From the NCBI GenBank assembly GCA_030038125.1, contig JASHPL010000254.1, positions 1 to 38,186 on the forward strand: 38,186 nt of DNA, read 5' to 3'. Under the pieces are notes generated by a model that was not told where the DNA came from, did not search any database, and saw only the letters and a program-made list of their open reading frames with translations. Position 1 is the stretch's first letter, and the number at the start of each line of letters is the position of its first letter. The translations under genes and the position numbers were made by a program. This document shows positions 21,714 to 31,163 of this stretch, in pieces. This DNA comes from Candidatus Sulfotelmatobacter sp. GTDB lineage: Bacteria; Acidobacteriota; Terriglobia; Terriglobales; Acidobacteriaceae.

Positions 21714-22565
21714 ATGGCTGCGGTTCTAGACCAGATCGTGGCGGCGACGCGGGCTCGGGTAGCCAAGGCCAAGCCTGTTACCGATTTGCGCGAGTTGGAG
21801 CGGCTGGCAGAACGGCATATCCCGCGCGGATTTCGGCGAGCGCTGGAAAACCGCCACTTCTCCCAACACCAGCGAGAATTGGGGAACCCACAGGATGGGA
21901 TCGCGGTCATCGCAGAACTGAAGAAGGCATCGCCCTCGAAGGGCGTAATTCGAAATGAGTTTCATCCTGCAGATTTGGCGCGGGAATTGGAGGATGCCGG
22001 AGCAGCGGCACTTTCCGTACTGACCGACGAGCAATTCTTTCAAGGCTCTCTGGCGAATCTGCGAGAGGCTTCGAGCGCAGCGAACATTCCTTGCCTGCGG
22101 AAGGATTTCATCGTCGACGAATTTCAGATTCTGGAAGCTCGGGCGAATTGTTCCGATGCGGTGTTGCTGATTGTGGCGGCGCTGACGTCGAAAGACTTGT
22201 GCACGCTCGCTTCCGCAGCGTGCCGGCATGGTCTGGACGTACTGTGTGAGATACATGATGGCAATGAGTTGCAGCGCGCCATCGATGCAGGCTGCGATCT
22301 GATCGGCGTGAACACGCGCGATTTGCGGACATTTCAGGTCGATCTTGAGACCGCGTTTCGCCTGGCCGAGAAATTTCCGTCAGGCGTGGTGCGCGTTGCG
22401 GAAAGTGGAATTCATTCGGGCGAAGAAATCGCACGCTTGCGAGCCGCTGGATATGATGCGGTTTTGATTGGCGAGTCGCTGATGCGGGCAGTGCATCCGG
22501 GTGAGGCATTGAGGGAGTTACTTCGAGTTGCGAGCACCGAGTACCGGGTGCCGAGTAGCACATAG
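21714..22565 (+). CDS. trpC: Indole-3-glycerol phosphate synthase
   Basis: Closes the indole ring in tryptophan synthesis, converting CdRP to indole-3-glycerol phosphate. 283 residues from ATG 21714. A TIM barrel with the family signatures: VIAELKKASPSKG (about 63-75, catalytic Glu and Lys), LRKDFIVDEFQILEARANCS (about 128-147), LCEIHDGNELQRAIDAGCDL, GVNTRDLRTFQVDL and VAESGIHSGEE. The core ends near residue 268. The last 15 or so (VASTEYRVPSST) come from a heptanucleotide repeat array that runs into the stop codon and are probably not functional. It is the first gene of the aromatic cluster and is monofunctional, not fused to trpF. Confidence 0.96.
   Translation: MAAVLDQIVAATRARVAKAKPVTDLRELERLAERHIPRGFRRALENRHFSQHQRELGNPQDGIAVIAELKKASPSKGVIRNEFHPADLARELEDAGAAALSVLTDEQFFQGSLANLREASSAANIPCLRKDFIVDEFQILEARANCSDAVLLIVAALTSKDLCTLASAACRHGLDVLCEIHDGNELQRAIDAGCDLIGVNTRDLRTFQVDLETAFRLAEKFPSGVVRVAESGIHSGEEIARLRAAGYDAVLIGESLMRAVHPGEALRELLRVASTEYRVPSST
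22524..22558 (+). repeat. Heptanucleotide array forming the 3' end of trpC
   Basis: Five consecutive 7-mers: CGAGTTG, CGAGCAC, CGAGTAC, CGGGTGC, CGAGTAG. The array ends 4 bp before the trpC stop codon and is translated as the C-terminal tail. Confidence 0.75.
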
Positions 22566-22656
22566 AAATTCTCGACTTCTCGCAAGATCGCTGGCAGCGC
22601 TCTGCATAGGAACCAAGATTTTATTGCCTACTGACAACCGGCGGCGCCACTGTTTT

Positions 22657-23313
22657 ATGACTTGGGTCAAGATTTGCGGGATAACGAATTTGGAGGATGC
22701 GCTGGTCGCGGTCGAGGCGGGCGCGGACGCCGTGGGATTCGTGTTTTATGAGAAGAGTCCGAGGTGCGTGAGCGTGGAAACCGCGCGAGACATTGTGAAG
22801 AAGCTGCCGGAGGGTGTGGAGAAGGTGGGAGTGTTCGTGGGAGGGCCCTCTGAAGGTATTGCGGACGCGATAAGGCGGTGCGGATTAACCATCGCTCAGA
22901 TTTATCCGCGAGGCTCCCTTGCATTGACGGATGAGTTCTTCAAAGATTTTCCGTTTCGAGTGATTCCGGCGATTTCAACGGGATTGATCGCTCAAGACGA
23001 AATCTCAGGCTTCCACTTGGAGAATAGCGCACACGAGAAGGTGGTGGCAGCACTCATCGACTCGGGCAATTCTGATTGTCCGGGTGGGACAGGCGAGACC
23101 TTCGACTGGCGAATGATGGCAGGACTTGCGGACGGGAAACTAGTGGTGGCTGGCGGGCTCAAGGCGGAGAATGTCGGCCAGGCGATTCGGACGTTGAACC
23201 CTTGGGGAGTGGATGTGGCTTCCGGCGTGGAGGCTTCACCGGGGAAGAAAGATCCGGAGAAGGTGCGGGCGTTTGTGCGAGCGGTGCGCGAGATAGATCT
23301 GAAGGCGGGATAG
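22657..23313 (+). CDS. trpF: Phosphoribosylanthranilate isomerase
   Basis: Catalyses the Amadori rearrangement of phosphoribosylanthranilate to CdRP, the step before TrpC. 218 residues from ATG 22657, chosen because the family begins with VKICGIT (catalytic Cys) immediately after it; the open frame extends upstream but would overlap trpC. Other signatures are [33 protein letters not shown] (catalytic Asp region) and [10 protein letters not shown]-like [14 protein letters not shown], then [16 protein letters not shown]. There is no strong ribosome-binding site, only GCGGCG-rich sequence, so translation may be coupled or weak. The gap from trpC is 91 bp; trpB begins 2 bp after the stop codon. 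Confidence 0.95.
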
Positions 23314-23315
23314 GG

Positions 23316-24671
23316 ATGAGTTCAGTCACACAAGCTACGAAAGTCAAAATTCCCACCCTAGTCTCGGCCAAAAGCGGCGAGCCTAGGATGGGGCATTCAA
23401 GGTTCCTATCCCCGCAAAGTGCGCGGGGACAAAGACGGGGCAATATAGCGCGGCCGGCGGCCAATTCGACGGTCGCTGAGGGCAACTCCACGGCACATGA
23501 GCCCGGACGGTTTGGTGTCTACGGCGGACGATATGTTCCTGAAACACTCATGGCCGCCCTCGACGAACTGGAGCGCGAGTATGAGAAGGCGCGGCGCGAC
23601 AAGAAATTTCAGGCGAGGTTGGACGGGCTGCTGAAAACCTATGCCGGTCGCCCCACGCCATTGTTTTTTGCACGGCGGCTGACGGATAAGCTGCGCGGGG
23701 CAAAGATCTATTTGAAGCGCGAGGATTTGCTGCATACCGGGGCGCACAAGATCAATAACTGCCTCGGGCAGGCGCTGCTCGTTGAGCGCATGGGCAAGCA
23801 TCGGGTCATCGCTGAGACGGGAGCGGGTCAGCACGGCGTGGCCACGGCGACGGTCTGTGCGCTGTTTGGATTCGAGTGTGTCGTCTACATGGGCACCGAA
23901 GACATGCGACGGCAGGAATTGAATGTTTTTCGTATGCGCCTCCTGGGGGCCGACGTGCGCGGTGTCCATTCGGGTTCGCGCACGTTGAAAGATGCCATCA
24001 ACGAAGCCATGCGCGACTGGGTCACGAATGTGCGAACGACACACTATTTGTTGGGCAGCGTGCTGGGAGCACATCCGTATCCCACGATGGTGCGGGATTT
24101 TCATCGCGTGATCGGGCGCGAGGCGCGGGCGCAGATACTGAAAGCCGAAGGCAAGCTTCCTGCAGCGATCATCGCCTGCGTCGGCGGGGGTTCGAATTCG
24201 ATTGGTATTTTCTACGACTTCCTTAACAACAAGAATGTTCGGCTGATTGGTGTCGAAGCCGGCGGCCGAGGCCAGGCGCTGGGGGATCATGCCGCGCGCT
24301 TTCGCGGAGGGTCTCCCGGAGTCTTGCAGGGAACGTATTCCTATGTTCTCCAGGACGCGGCTGGGCAGATTGCCACGACGCATTCGGTCTCTGCGGGACT
24401 CGACTATCCTTCGATAGGGCCGGAGCACGCGGCTTTGCGGGACTCAGGGCGGGCAGAGTATGTTCCCGCTTCGGATGCCGAGGCACTGGAAGCAACGACT
24501 TTGCTGGCGCGCACAGAGGGAGTCATTCCGGCACTGGAATCAGCGCACGCGGTCGCTGAAGTCATCAAGCGAGCGCCGCGCATGAAGAAGTCGGACATCG
24601 TCATCGTGAATGTCTCCGGACGTGGAGATAAGGATGTTGGGATTTTGCGCGAAAATTTGAAATTGCAATAA
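23316..24671 (+). CDS. trpB: Tryptophan synthase beta subunit with an N-terminal extension made partly of palindromic repeats
   Basis: PLP enzyme that joins indole and serine to make tryptophan, acting as an alpha2-beta2 complex with TrpA. From ATG 23316 it has 451 residues, about 50 more than usual. The family core starts at [19 protein letters not shown] (about residue 63). PLP lysine is in [16 protein letters not shown]; the phosphate loop is [31 protein letters not shown] is intact. Between 23388 (ATG) and the core there is no in-frame ATG, GTG or TTG, so at least 38 extension residues must be translated, and they include a palindromic element; the 23316 start includes a second one. Start choice between 23316 and 23388 is open. 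Confidence 0.94.
23352..23443 (+). repeat. Two palindromic elements inside the trpB 5' coding region
   Basis: Element 1 spans 23352-23396: CCTAG (23357-23361) pairs with CTAGG (23383-23387) around an imperfect CTCG/CGAG stem with an AAAA-containing loop, followed by ATGGGGCA. Element 2 spans about 23405-23443: TCCCCGC (23409-23415), 7-nt loop, GCGGGGA (23423-23429), followed by ACGGGGCA. Both share the right-flank sequence GGGGCA with the copies at 25711 and 31070. Confidence 0.7.
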
Positions 24672-24685
24672 AAAGAAGTCACAAA

Positions 24686-24704
24686 TGGGGTGAAAGGAAC
24701 CCCA
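24686..24704 (+). repeat. Hairpin just after trpB
   Basis: TGGGGT (24686-24691), loop of 7 nt, ACCCCA (24699-24704). It begins 14 bp after the trpB stop. No T tract follows, so a Rho-independent terminator is not supported; it could limit 3' decay or be another repeat remnant. Confidence 0.5.
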
Positions 24705-24754
24705 CACCGAGAAAAATGGAAATGGCGGAACAAGTTCAGGATTGGGCGCACGAG

Positions 24755-24793
24755 ATCCCTCGGCCCGCTGGTGAAGACGCGGGCATTTGGGAT
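24755..24793 (+). repeat. Extragenic palindrome with ATCCC/GGGAT outer arms, trpB-trpA spacer
   Basis: Outer arms ATCCC (24755-24759) and GGGAT (24789-24793) enclose a perfect inner stem GCCCGC (24763-24768) and GCGGGC (24779-24784) with a 10-nt loop. It ends in GGGATGACG. The shape, fixed ends with a variable inner stem, resembles dispersed REP-like elements. Confidence 0.6.
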
Positions 24794-24828
24794 GACGCCG
24801 CTATTTTCAGGACAGAGGGCACAGAGGG

Positions 24829-25617
24829 ATGCCCTTAGTTTTCTACAACAAGCCGGGTCTGGTTGCGTATGTCACGTGTGGCGATCCTGATCTCGCCACC
24901 ACACGTGAGATCGTCCAGGCCGCGATTGAGGCCAGCGCCGACGTCATTGAACTGGGTGTACCGTTTAGCGATCCCGTAGCTGACGGCCCGGTGATCCAGC
25001 GGGCGAGCGAGCGGGCACTGAAGAATGGAACCTCTTTAGCAGAGGTGCTGACGCTGGCAGCGGAGATTCGACAGCAGGCGCAATCCACAGGATTGATTAT
25101 TTTTTCTTATCTCAATCCCATTCTGCGCATGGGAATGGAGAAATTCTGCAAGGTCGCACGCGCTGCGGGAGTGGATGGCGCGCTGGTGACCGATTTGCCG
25201 GTAGAAGAGGCGAGCGAATATTTGTGCGCGATGCATGAACATGATCTGGCTCCGGTGTTTCTGGCTGCGCCAACGAGCCCCGACGAGCGACTAAAACGGA
25301 TTGCCAAGGCCTCGCGCGGGTTTGTCTACGCGGTGTCGCGGACCGGAGTTACCGGACAGCGGCAGCAGCTGGCCGAAGATGCTCGCAAACTGGTGAAGCG
25401 GTTGCGGCGCGTGACGAAGCTCCCCATCGCGGTGGGCTTTGGGATTTCCAACGCGGAGCAGTTTGCCGAAGTCGGTGAGTTTGCCGATGCAGTGGTTGTG
25501 GGAAGCGCGATTGTGGAGACCATCGAACGCAATCCGGGAAGCGAGGCTGCAGCGGTGGAAGCATTTGTGAGAAGGCTGACCATTGACAGCCGTCAGCTAT
25601 CAACCACTGCCGGTTAG
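24829..25617 (+). CDS. trpA: Tryptophan synthase alpha subunit
   Basis: Cleaves indole-3-glycerol phosphate to indole, which passes to TrpB. 262 residues from ATG 24829, with GAGGG-type purines just upstream. Catalytic Glu and Asp are in IELGVPFSDPVADGPVIQRA (about 40-59). Further signatures are NPILRMGMEKFCKVARAAGV, GALVTDLPVEEA, FLAAPTSPDERLKRIAK, GFVYAVSRTGVTG and VGFGISNAEQFAEV. It lacks the first helix often present before the first strand and starts right at FYNKPGLVAYVTCGDP. The last 13 residues (LTIDSRQLSTTAG) are encoded by a heptanucleotide array, so the native C-terminus is probably near FVRR. The spacer from trpB is 157 bp and holds two palindromes. Confidence 0.95.
   Translation: MPLVFYNKPGLVAYVTCGDPDLATTREIVQAAIEASADVIELGVPFSDPVADGPVIQRASERALKNGTSLAEVLTLAAEIRQQAQSTGLIIFSYLNPILRMGMEKFCKVARAAGVDGALVTDLPVEEASEYLCAMHEHDLAPVFLAAPTSPDERLKRIAKASRGFVYAVSRTGVTGQRQQLAEDARKLVKRLRRVTKLPIAVGFGISNAEQFAEVGEFADAVVVGSAIVETIERNPGSEAAAVEAFVRRLTIDSRQLSTTAG
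25582..25609 (+). repeat. Heptanucleotide array forming the 3' end of trpA
   Basis: Four 7-mers: ATTGACA, GCCGTCA, GCTATCA, ACCACTG, ending 5 bp before the trpA stop codon. TCAGCTATCA at 25593-25602 is the exact reverse complement of TGATAGCTGA at 25763-25772 in the next array. Confidence 0.7.
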
Positions 25618-25697
25618 TGTATCCGCCGTCGAGATGCCCAGTTTCTGGCAACATCGGCTAGAAGTGGAACACCCCTTGTCTTGAGGAAAGAGAAGTC

Positions 25698-25740
25698 AAA
25701 ATTCCACCCAGTCTCGCAGAAAACGCGAGACGAGGATGGA
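25698..25740 (+). repeat. Palindromic element in the trpA-chorismate mutase spacer
   Basis: GTCTCGC (25711-25717), loop AGAAAAC, GCGAGAC (25725-25731): a perfect 7-bp stem with a 7-nt loop. Left flank AAGTCAAAATTCC and right flank GAGGATGG closely match the element at 23341-23396 in trpB, so they are copies of one family. Confidence 0.7.
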
Positions 25741-25745
25741 GAGCC

Positions 25746-25794
25746 GGGATTTGAGATTTGACTGATAGCTGAAAGTGAGAGCTGACAGCTGGTG
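25746..25794 (+). repeat. Heptanucleotide array before the chorismate mutase gene
   Basis: Seven 7-mers in phase: GGGATTT, GAGATTT, GACTGAT, AGCTGAA, AGTGAGA, GCTGACA, GCTGGTG. The array runs up to the start codon region of the next gene, leaving no recognisable ribosome-binding site. Confidence 0.65.
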
Positions 25795-25797
25795 TCC

Positions 25798-26118
25798 ATG
25801 GATATCGAAGACTGGCGTAAGAAGATTGACGAGCTGGATCGAAAGCTGGTGGCTCTGCTTAGCGAGCGAGCACGGGCGGCGGTGGAGATCGGACGTCTGA
25901 AGCGTGATACATCGCTTCCGATTTATGAGCCCGATCGTGAGCGGTTGGTGTTTGAGAATGTGCAGCAGGCAAATCGAGGTCCGTTGCCCGGGCGAGATCT
26001 GGTGCGGATTTATGAGCGCATCATTGACGTCATGCGAAATATTCAGAAGGAGGAGATCGTGACAGGTATCGAGCCCTCCGAAGCCGAGACCGAAATCGAT
26101 TCGGAAGTGAATGATTAA
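25798..26118 (+). CDS. Chorismate mutase, AroQ type, free-standing
   Basis: Converts chorismate to prephenate, the entry to tyrosine and phenylalanine. 106 residues from ATG 25798; a GTG at 25792 would add two. The three-helix AroQ fold is visible: helix 1 IEDWRKKIDELDRKLVALLS (active-site Arg), then VEIGRLKRDTSLPIYEPDRE (active-site Lys and Arg), and helix 3 RIYERIIDVMRNIQKEE. The C-terminal tail (IEPSEAETEIDSEVND) is acidic and not part of the fold. It is fused neither to prephenate dehydratase nor to DAHP synthase, although the DAHP synthase gene follows by 91 bp. Such pairs can form a complex in which prephenate or chorismate regulates DAHP synthase; that is an inference here. Confidence 0.92.
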   Translation: MDIEDWRKKIDELDRKLVALLSERARAAVEIGRLKRDTSLPIYEPDRERLVFENVQQANRGPLPGRDLVRIYERIIDVMRNIQKEEIVTGIEPSEAETEIDSEVND

Positions 26119-26146
26119 TAAGTCCCGAGTTGCGAGTCCTGAGTCA
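26119..26146 (+). repeat. Heptanucleotide array after the chorismate mutase gene
   Basis: Four 7-mers starting immediately after the TAA: TAAGTCC, CGAGTTG, CGAGTCC, TGAGTCA. The CGAGTTG unit is identical to the first unit of the trpC array at 22524-22530. Confidence 0.7.
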
Positions 26147-26209
26147 AGGGCTTCAGTTTCCCTAACGCCTCTGGACTTTCGACCCCGGACTTGTCGCTGA
26201 AGGATTCTT

Positions 26210-27226
26210 ATGATTGTCGCAATGCAGGAAGGCGCGGACGAGCCACAAATTCAGCAGGTCATCGAGCACCTGGTCAAGATGGGGTTCGAGGTTCACCGCT
26301 CGACTGGAGCGCGGATGACCGTGCTCGGCGCAGTCGGATCGGGCATCGATTTCGATATTCGCATCCTGGAACTTCTTCCCGGTGTGCAGGAAGTGCATCG
26401 CATCAGTTCGCCTTACAAGTTAGCTGGGCGAAGTTTTCGTCCGGAAGGCACGATCGTGAAGCTGGCGAATGGCATCGGAGTGGGCGGCAATGAAGTGATT
26501 GTGATGGCGGGTCCGTGTTCGGTAGAATCGCGCGAGCAGTTGTTTACGACTGCCGAGGCCGTGGCCAAGGCGGGCGCAAAAGTGCTGCGGGGAGGCGCAT
26601 TCAAGCCACGGAGTTCTCCCTATTCGTTTCAGGGGCACGGCGAGGAAGCACTCAAGTTGCTGGCCGAGGCAGGCAAGAAATTCAGCCTGCTGGTGATCAG
26701 CGAAGTGATGGAGATTTCGCAGATTGCGCTGATGGCGCCCTACGTCGACATTCTGCAGGTGGGCGCTCGCAATATGCAGAATTTCAATTTGCTGCGCGAA
26801 TTAGGGAAAGTGCGCAAACCGGTACTGCTGAAGCGAGGCATCGCTGCCACCCTGGAAGAGTTGCTGCTTTCGGCGGAATATATCATGGCCGGTGGGAATT
26901 ACGATGTGATTCTATGCGAACGCGGCATTCGGACGTTCGAAACCTACACGCGAAACACCATGGACATTTCGGCGATCCCAATCATTCATAAGCTGTCGCA
27001 TTTGCCGATGACTGCCGATCCTTCGCACGGAACGGGGCGGCGCGATAAAGTTGCGCCCATGGCACGGGCGGCCGTGGCGGCGGGTGCGGATGCACTGCTG
27101 ATCGAAGTGCATTGCGATCCCGACAAAGCCCTATCCGATGGAGCGCAATCGCTCTTTCCCGAGCAGTTCGCCAAGTTGATGGATGAGCTGCGCATCATCG
27201 CGCCCGCAGTGGGAAGAAAAATCTGA
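26210..27226 (+). CDS. aroF: 3-deoxy-7-phosphoheptulonate synthase (DAHP synthase), type I-beta
   Basis: First enzyme of the shikimate pathway, condensing PEP with erythrose 4-phosphate. 338 residues from ATG 26210, with AAGGA at 26200-26204. Residues 1-70 form the ferredoxin-like regulatory domain typical of the I-beta subgroup ([20 protein letters not shown]). The barrel has [35 protein letters not shown], the metal-site cysteine and Lys-Arg in the first and fourth strands ([20 protein letters not shown]), the [17 protein letters not shown] segment and [11 protein letters not shown]. All substrate and metal residues appear intact. The upstream chorismate mutase and downstream prephenate dehydrogenase suggest feedback through the Tyr branch. 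Confidence 0.95.
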
Positions 27227-30950: not shown

Positions 30951-31069
30951 CAGTTCCTCCGGCTGCAATAGTATTCTTATCAGCCTACACCTACTGGATG
31001 GGTTTTGCGCGGCGATCGAATGCTCACTTTGCTTGCGTGCGCCCTTCGACTAAGCGCGGTCGTAGATCA

Positions 31070-31093
31070 CTTCTCGCAAAAACCGGCGAGAAG
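31070..31093 (+). repeat. Palindromic element upstream of the aldo/keto reductase, same family as in trpB
   Basis: CTTCTCGC (31070-31077), 8-nt A-rich loop, GCGAGAAG (31086-31093), followed by GGGGGGCACCC. The stem core TCTCGC/GCGAGA and the GGGGCA-type right flank match the copies at 23352-23443 and 25698-25740. The rest of 30951-31163 holds nothing else recognised. Confidence 0.6.
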
Positions 31094-31163
31094 GGGGGCA
31101 CCCATTTTCATTTTAATTTAGTGGGCCGAGGCAAATCGGCACTCAGAGCAGGCTGCCGGCTGT

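Follow-up and report, generated by a model that had tools for sequence, protein, structure and literature searches.

A palindromic repeat family, most likely of REP type, in frame within TrpB and other enzymes of an acidobacterial genus

Introduction

Does the TrpB protein of an acidobacterium include translated repeat DNA and, if so, from what kind of element was that DNA derived? The question is raised by a window of 38,186 nt (the whole stretch of DNA analysed here, from Candidatus Sulfotelmatobacter sp., contig JASHPL010000254.1), where the trpB reading frame opens well ahead of the conserved enzyme core and the DNA in between holds palindromes. A first-pass annotation of the sequence had likened these to the Rickettsia palindromic elements (RPEs), palindromic repeats that are translated in frame in unrelated conserved proteins and also occur in intergenic DNA (PMC10969869, PMC2229807, PMC2635572). 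Another class of short palindromes, the REPs, has likewise been reported inside genes, and two Xanthomonas species have REPs at roughly the same place in recB (PMC3733652). We refer to the palindrome family of the window as F1.

The trpB leader and its palindromes

In this genome (assembly of 6.02 Mb in 494 contigs) trpC, trpF, trpB and trpA are consecutive. Palindromes were scored with a covariance model, R1, whose training set comprised ten trpB copies, all from other species, and not the window copy. The features needed below are as follows.

21852..21889, + strand: trpC loop with what may be a decayed F1 remnant (by eye; fold z only -1.6)
23311..23318, + strand: trpF stop (23311-23313) and trpB ATG (23316-23318) with 2 nt between them (from the sequence; spacing by script)
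23316..24671, + strand: trpB, open from ATG 23316; a leader of 63 residues, then the conserved core
23316..23504, + strand: coding leader (N-terminal extension), predicted to be disordered (AlphaFold2)
23342..23398, + strand: element 1, an F1 palindrome, read as 20 protein letters (R1 38.9 bits, E 6.8e-9, window search)
23402..23442, + strand: element 2, in frame, probably an F1 palindrome that has degenerated (R1 13.2 bits, E 0.13, match partial)
25694..25745, + strand: F1 copy in the spacer after trpA (R1 25.2 bits, E 5.3e-5; fold z -5.6)
31058..31103, + strand: weak F1-like hairpin in a spacer (R1 11.9 bits, E 0.31)

The NCBIfam model TIGR00263 (trpB) matched residues 64-446 (621 bits, above cut-off), and the conserved core starts at approx. 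23505, so that the leader comprises 63 residues; the extension described in the first-pass annotation is real, and its size, given there as about 50 residues, was too small. Searched alone against NCBIfam, a library that contains RPE models, the leader matched no family at E ≤ 0.1, and AlphaFold2 returned pLDDT <50 for residues 1-63 (alignment of 26 sequences, few with the leader). Its only in-frame ATG, GTG or TTG codons are the ATGs at 23316 and 23388, which bears out the earlier observation that no such start lies between 23388 and the core. The preceding trpF gene (22528-23313) is hypervariable across the genus, with differing loop lengths.

A typical F1 copy has a head like AAAGTCAAAATC, followed by CCCACCCT, a variable inner stem with an A-rich loop, and then AGGATGGGGCACCC. 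The proposal that four palindromes of the window belong to one family is firm for element 1 (fold z -3.6; 0 of 200 shuffles equally good) and for the copy at 25694-25745, both by R1 and by folding, and less sure for element 2 and the hairpin at 31070-31093, for which the R1 matches are weak. We regard the latter two as probable degenerate F1 members. In element 2 the model matches the inner stem only, the fold is equalled by 8 of 200 shuffles (z -2.1), and the DNA of the element has no further match in its own genome better than E 0.098; the spacer hairpin (31066-31105) folds well (z -4.3). The trpC of the window possibly carries an F1 remnant, at most a decayed one, at the same place as a clear in-frame F1 copy in another species, G007 (L242:4566-4612, 33.9 bits; match of place taken from coordinates).

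Abundance and range of F1

In its own genome R1 matched at least 64 places at E ≤ 0.1, a lower bound because 150 of 6517 first-look candidates were scored. Lengths range from 36 to 83 bp and are mostly 45-58 bp. An open reading frame in either orientation contains 21 of the 64 copies (by crude gene calls, with many of the frames unverified), and 50, 56 and 52 of 63 copies are free of stop codons in the three forward frames, compared with approx. 40 of 64 for shuffled letters. Short arrays with start-to-start distances of 63-122 bp were observed in genome G001 (C4:4816-5484 and C57:4670-4962). With 83 candidates scored per genome, matches at E ≤ 0.001 were present in all 43 genus genomes (assemblies of 3.5-8.2 Mb), at least 3-83 per genome, and in 3 of 28 genomes from outside the genus (one in G049, eight in G055 and four in G069).

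The trpB site across the genus

Of 37 genus genomes surveyed for trpB, including the own genome, 28 gave loci, three gave no match and six gave partial matches only. R1 detected F1 in the TrpB leader at 23 of the 28 loci (13 of the 18 outside the training set; the other ten built R1), which contradicts an insertion private to this genome and, because so many loci carry the family there, makes it probable that the occupancy of the site is old and that the subtype is what differs. The possibility, raised together with the original observation, of an ancestral extension without repeat similarity is right in that the extension is common to most of the genus, but the repeat similarity is clear.

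The content of the site is varied. Three loci (L016, L026 and L029) lack F1 and have a short leader, and two (L008 and L019) carry a different repeat in its place; in L025 F1 and a different repeat are both present, in L013 and L021 another repeat is nested within F1, and L031 has two F1 copies. By eye, the nearest candidate starts of most other loci compared are approx. 35 residues or less from the core. Unlike inner stems stand between similar flanks in L006 and L007, and the content of L008 is unlike that of its near relatives L009 and L012. We read such differences as exchange or rewriting in place, by insertion or recombination. In the trpB tree, 13 of whose 25 inner branches are unresolved, L016, L018, L026 and L029 form one clade, and within it only L018 has F1. 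In a further relative (L101, outside the counts) the element is visible by eye. Fifteen further trpB loci, two of them from other families and 13 from named records (of which L104 and L105, 86-88% identical, may be inside the genus), were scanned, and none has F1 in the gene. Alignment of relatives, as proposed at the outset, yielded filled and unfilled homologues, which are too diverged for the exact boundaries or a target duplication to be resolved.

Reading frame of the leader

The repeat DNA would, on the sequence comparisons that follow, be translated as part of TrpB. The trpF stop lies 2-3 nt ahead of an in-frame ATG at 18 of the 28 loci (by script), 16 of them among the 23 with F1. The phase and codon analysis covered 26 of the 28 loci, the other two being L007 (cut by a contig end) and L019 (GTG start). 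The head of F1 is in one phase in all 21 loci in which both F1 ends were recognised. The head-to-tail length is 1 mod 3 in 17 of them and 0 mod 3 in four, and the distance from F1 to the core shifts so as to compensate; the lengths of 63 F1 copies of the own genome outside trpB are spread 19/18/26 over the three residues mod 3.

Differences at codon positions 1/2/3 ahead of the element are 0.249/0.264/0.484 (core: 0.136/0.099/0.457), while those of the element and spacer are 0.525/0.450/0.562, with little third-position excess, as expected of a recent or unconstrained peptide and equally of non-coding DNA. The reading frame of the leader has no stop in 26 of 26 loci, a figure that is partly built in because only ATGs of the open frame were considered as starts. 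Stops interrupt the two remaining frames in 15 and 19 of 26 leaders. The earlier suggestion of translation through the palindromes is thus supported by the trpF stop spacing, the kept frame and the codon pattern ahead of the element.

In-frame copies in other enzymes

Further in-frame copies, which the first-pass annotation had suggested looking for, were found in genus members within genes for agmatine deiminase, MoaA, RarA and a cysteine-desulfurase-like protein. At E ≤ 0.5, the scan of 88 genus loci (28, 23, 16 and 21, respectively; L202, L234, L235 and L313 were left out as partial genes) gave 26 matches, 22 of which, in 20 of the 88 loci, lie in the stop-free frame of the gene with homology on both sides; one further match is at a gene edge and three are beyond the matched gene. 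The 22 copies are distributed as five in agmatine deiminase, two in MoaA, six in RarA and nine in the desulfurase-like gene (in 5, 2, 5 and 8 loci). E is <0.05 for 19 of them and 0.053, 0.093 and 0.13 for the remaining three, which belong to the desulfurase-like gene. Fifteen are oriented with the gene, and the seven reversed ones are all in the desulfurase-like gene. F1 occurs in at least two forward reading frames and also in reverse. Homologues without the insert exist within the genus for all four genes (MoaA being short rather than empty) and outside it for three, the desulfurase alignment having held genus members only. Among 42 further loci of the four genes and trpB (29 from other genera, 13 from named records) there was one match, downstream of trpB.

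It should be noted that the in-frame rate is not a genome average, because the four genes were chosen for a copy already found. In 400 kb of genome G014, with 19 F1 places (17 looked at, 16 included in the orientation count and five reading frames compared with Pfam), at least two of the 17 copies are inside conserved enzymes, TrpB and the desulfurase-like protein. Eight genes in synteny around trpB were compared in up to 20 relatives. Inserts occurred in trpB and trpC and extra loop residues in the prephenate dehydrogenase of two species; no variable stretch of ≥8 columns was present in trpA, DAHP synthase or two CoA-transferase genes. Candidate copies of the own genome are in frame in MutL, between domains, and in a MutS2-like gene (L091 and L052), and others are present in UbiD and NDH2. 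A copy at methylmalonyl-CoA mutase is probably extragenic, because an ATG follows it and the domain begins later; copies at DoxX, ScpA and CBS genes, all ahead of the domains, were set aside.

Other repeats share these loops. A second loop of agmatine deiminase, before FRFNAWAKY (L181-L209), whose length is very species-dependent, holds other repeats, e.g. one translated GFARPDSRGRLSPHENREGH..., and F1 in L199. The MoaA loop RELAKL...LDIALTTNG (L211-L233) has in several species a further repeat, translated PQGLKP...GAAEAVPF.

F1 copies beside tyrosine transposase genes

Y1 transposase domains were detected in 13 of 15 genomes (53 rows), and 30 loci were scanned with R1. Eight of the 30 contained 16 matches at E ≤ 0.05, two of which are listed twice, L348 and L367 sharing two matches; L366 and L372 are halves of one place. 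No match was found in the other 22 loci, including the 3-kb locus around the only, weak Y1 match of the own genome (27.3 bits, above cut-off). In L368 (G003) inverted F1 copies are located beside both gene ends, at -2 and +17 nt (E 1.6e-6 and 9.7e-6), and in L360 (G007) at -39 and +56 nt (E 5e-4 and 0.04, the second being weak). By a rough estimate from the G014 density, chance would place approx. 0.28 neighbours within 150 bp of the 44 ends of 22 genus genes. The arrangement at L368 and L360 is a REPtron-like layout, and the proteins of L360, L363 and L368, the three tested, all scored above the cut-off of the NCBIfam model REP_Tyr_transpos. The REP-associated transposase gene L363:1153-1935 (G001) has F1 in frame in its own coding sequence. 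In view of these paired flanking copies at genes for REP-associated transposases of two genomes, F1 is most probably of REP type and linked to a tyrosine transposase.

Discussion

F1 resembles the REP/RAYT systems (REPtrons) in being a short, dispersed and mostly intergenic palindrome with inverted copies beside REP-associated tyrosine transposase genes. It differs from them in its variable inner stems and in its genus-wide recurrence in frame at the same enzyme sites, in either orientation and alongside other repeats; by eye, moreover, the F1 consensus ends carry neither the GTAG nor the CGTC foot of the REP superfamily of that name. The likeness to RPEs holds in principle, with F1 stop-free and in frame in unrelated conserved genes, namely trpB and the four others described above. 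However, RPEs are 105-146 bp long (PMC2229807) and F1 is shorter, although length is no criterion for RPE-4 and RPE-6 should these be REPs, and they have been counted among the short CGTC REPs (PMC3733652). Also unlike RPEs, F1 fills the same sites with different subtypes, and its host is an acidobacterial genus with assemblies of several Mb. It is most likely not a Rickettsia-type element by descent, but of REP type.

Two further systems are comparable in part. Acidobacterial Y1 transposases flanked by terminal inverted repeats (TIRYT, e.g. Koribacter ORF 1552), one repeat of which is a repeated family, have been described (PMC3733652), as have class 3 Y1 proteins in Acidobacteria with approx. 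600 associated structures in Solibacter (PMC6006769). F1 shares with TIRYTs the inverted repeats at the flanks of acidobacterial Y1 transposases; inspection by eye did not reveal the TIRYT motif GGGGWSAS in the consensus of F1. Nematomorpha mitochondria, too, have hairpins within translated genes (PMC6649704), but these are long perfect repeats, and the accessible part of that report mentions no transposase link. A literature search that covered few subscription papers found no description of coding palindromes in Acidobacteriota. It is well supported that F1 copies are in-frame mobile palindromes that work like RPEs and are by association of REP type; the apparently new features are the host lineage, the genus-wide breadth, the use of both orientations, the nested repeats and the re-occupied sites.

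We consider it highly probable that F1 is a REP-type palindrome, moved by RAYTs or descended from elements so moved, that is mostly intergenic and survives in frame at permissive protein sites, where it is translated. A RAYT would move F1, or would have moved elements ancestral to it. Because the sequence is often free of stop codons, a copy that arrives in a permissive place and in a fitting frame, such as the TrpB leader or loops of other enzymes, could survive as a short, probably disordered peptide, presumably near-neutral for the enzyme. The trpB site would have been filled early in the genus; later the inner stem may have been exchanged or rewritten, a second element may have joined, or other repeats may have been substituted, with the frame restored each time.

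Two alternatives deny that the palindromes are translated. If TrpB started at or near its core, or inside element 1, the palindrome would be an ordinary extragenic REP hairpin in an untranslated leader. A published caution that REPs located at gene starts may in many cases be extragenic (PMC3733652) speaks for this, as do the ATG at 23388, within element 1, as a possible start, the scarcity of third-position excess in the element and a start codon nearer the core in several genus loci. Here, however, the stretch from 23388 to the core offers no ATG, GTG or TTG, the length compensation, the codon pattern ahead of the element and the trpF stop spacing all point to translation, and the family also lies deep within four other enzymes, whose copies an alternative start would not explain; we therefore hold an untranslated leader to be very unlikely. 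Still less credible is a transcribed insert that the ribosome skips by translational bypassing, as reported in Magnusiomyces mitochondria. Stable hairpins within coding sequence and that precedent (mentioned in PMC6649704) would suit it, but skipped inserts need neither keep frame nor avoid stops, whereas the phase is kept in all 21 trpB loci with both F1 ends recognised, the 22 copies in the four genes are in stop-free frame and no match within the matched gene span breaks it.

The main rival to translated F1 as a near-neutral passenger, which is our first choice, accepts translation and makes the peptide a by-product: the trpB hairpin would be under selection as an RNA element between trpF and trpB, for coupling, mRNA stability or processing. 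F1 is indeed far commoner at trpB (23 of 28 loci) than in the other four genes (20 of 88), and in the trp region of 20 genus members (L241-L260) 51 of 52 F1 places (64 matches minus 12 opposite-strand mirror images; counts not independent) are oriented like trpB. In co-directional spacers, by crude gene calls, 16 copies have the same orientation and 13 the opposite one in the own genome, and one and three, respectively, in G014. The trpB hairpins also fold strongly, with a mean z of -4.9 and 20 of 21 below -2, compared with -2.9 for the other in-gene copies and -2.95 for dispersed copies of the own genome, which were trimmed unlike the trpB copies. We do not take these stronger hairpins as a sign of RNA function: the comparison mixes species, and in a further one, which omitted L012, L013 and L021, the own trpB copy, at -0.516 kcal/mol per nt, differs little from the others (means of -0.466 for 59 dispersed copies of the own genome and -0.498 for the 20 best). 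F1 is, moreover, absent from trpB in five of the 28 loci, two of which have another repeat, and an Rfam scan of 22500-26500 gave no match at E ≤ 1. In the alignment of ten trpB copies (A2) pairing and compensatory change were no better than in shuffles (234 of 500), so that no covariation is claimed, and RNAalifold recovered the outer stem only from the length-variable alignment A1. All in all, selection as an RNA element appears unlikely.

A broader reading, which we offer tentatively and hold to be possible rather than probable, is that RAYT/REP systems are a running source of loop diversity across the genus, with sites refilled in frame, and that the trpB hairpin is in addition kept as an RNA element. 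A few permissive sites of core enzymes would then be filled, emptied and refilled by several palindrome families in either orientation, and the loops of orthologous enzymes would be largely written by selfish DNA.

For annotation, leaders and loops of this kind are not necessarily errors of assembly or of start calling. The best-known protein-coding palindromes are those of Rickettsia, where genomes are small and shrinking and the palindromes are easily taken for decay. The acidobacterial genus offers tens of species, filled and unfilled sites side by side and candidate transposases for comparison, and for this reason two questions become approachable and testable: how REPs insert, and whether palindromes regularly give rise to new protein segments.
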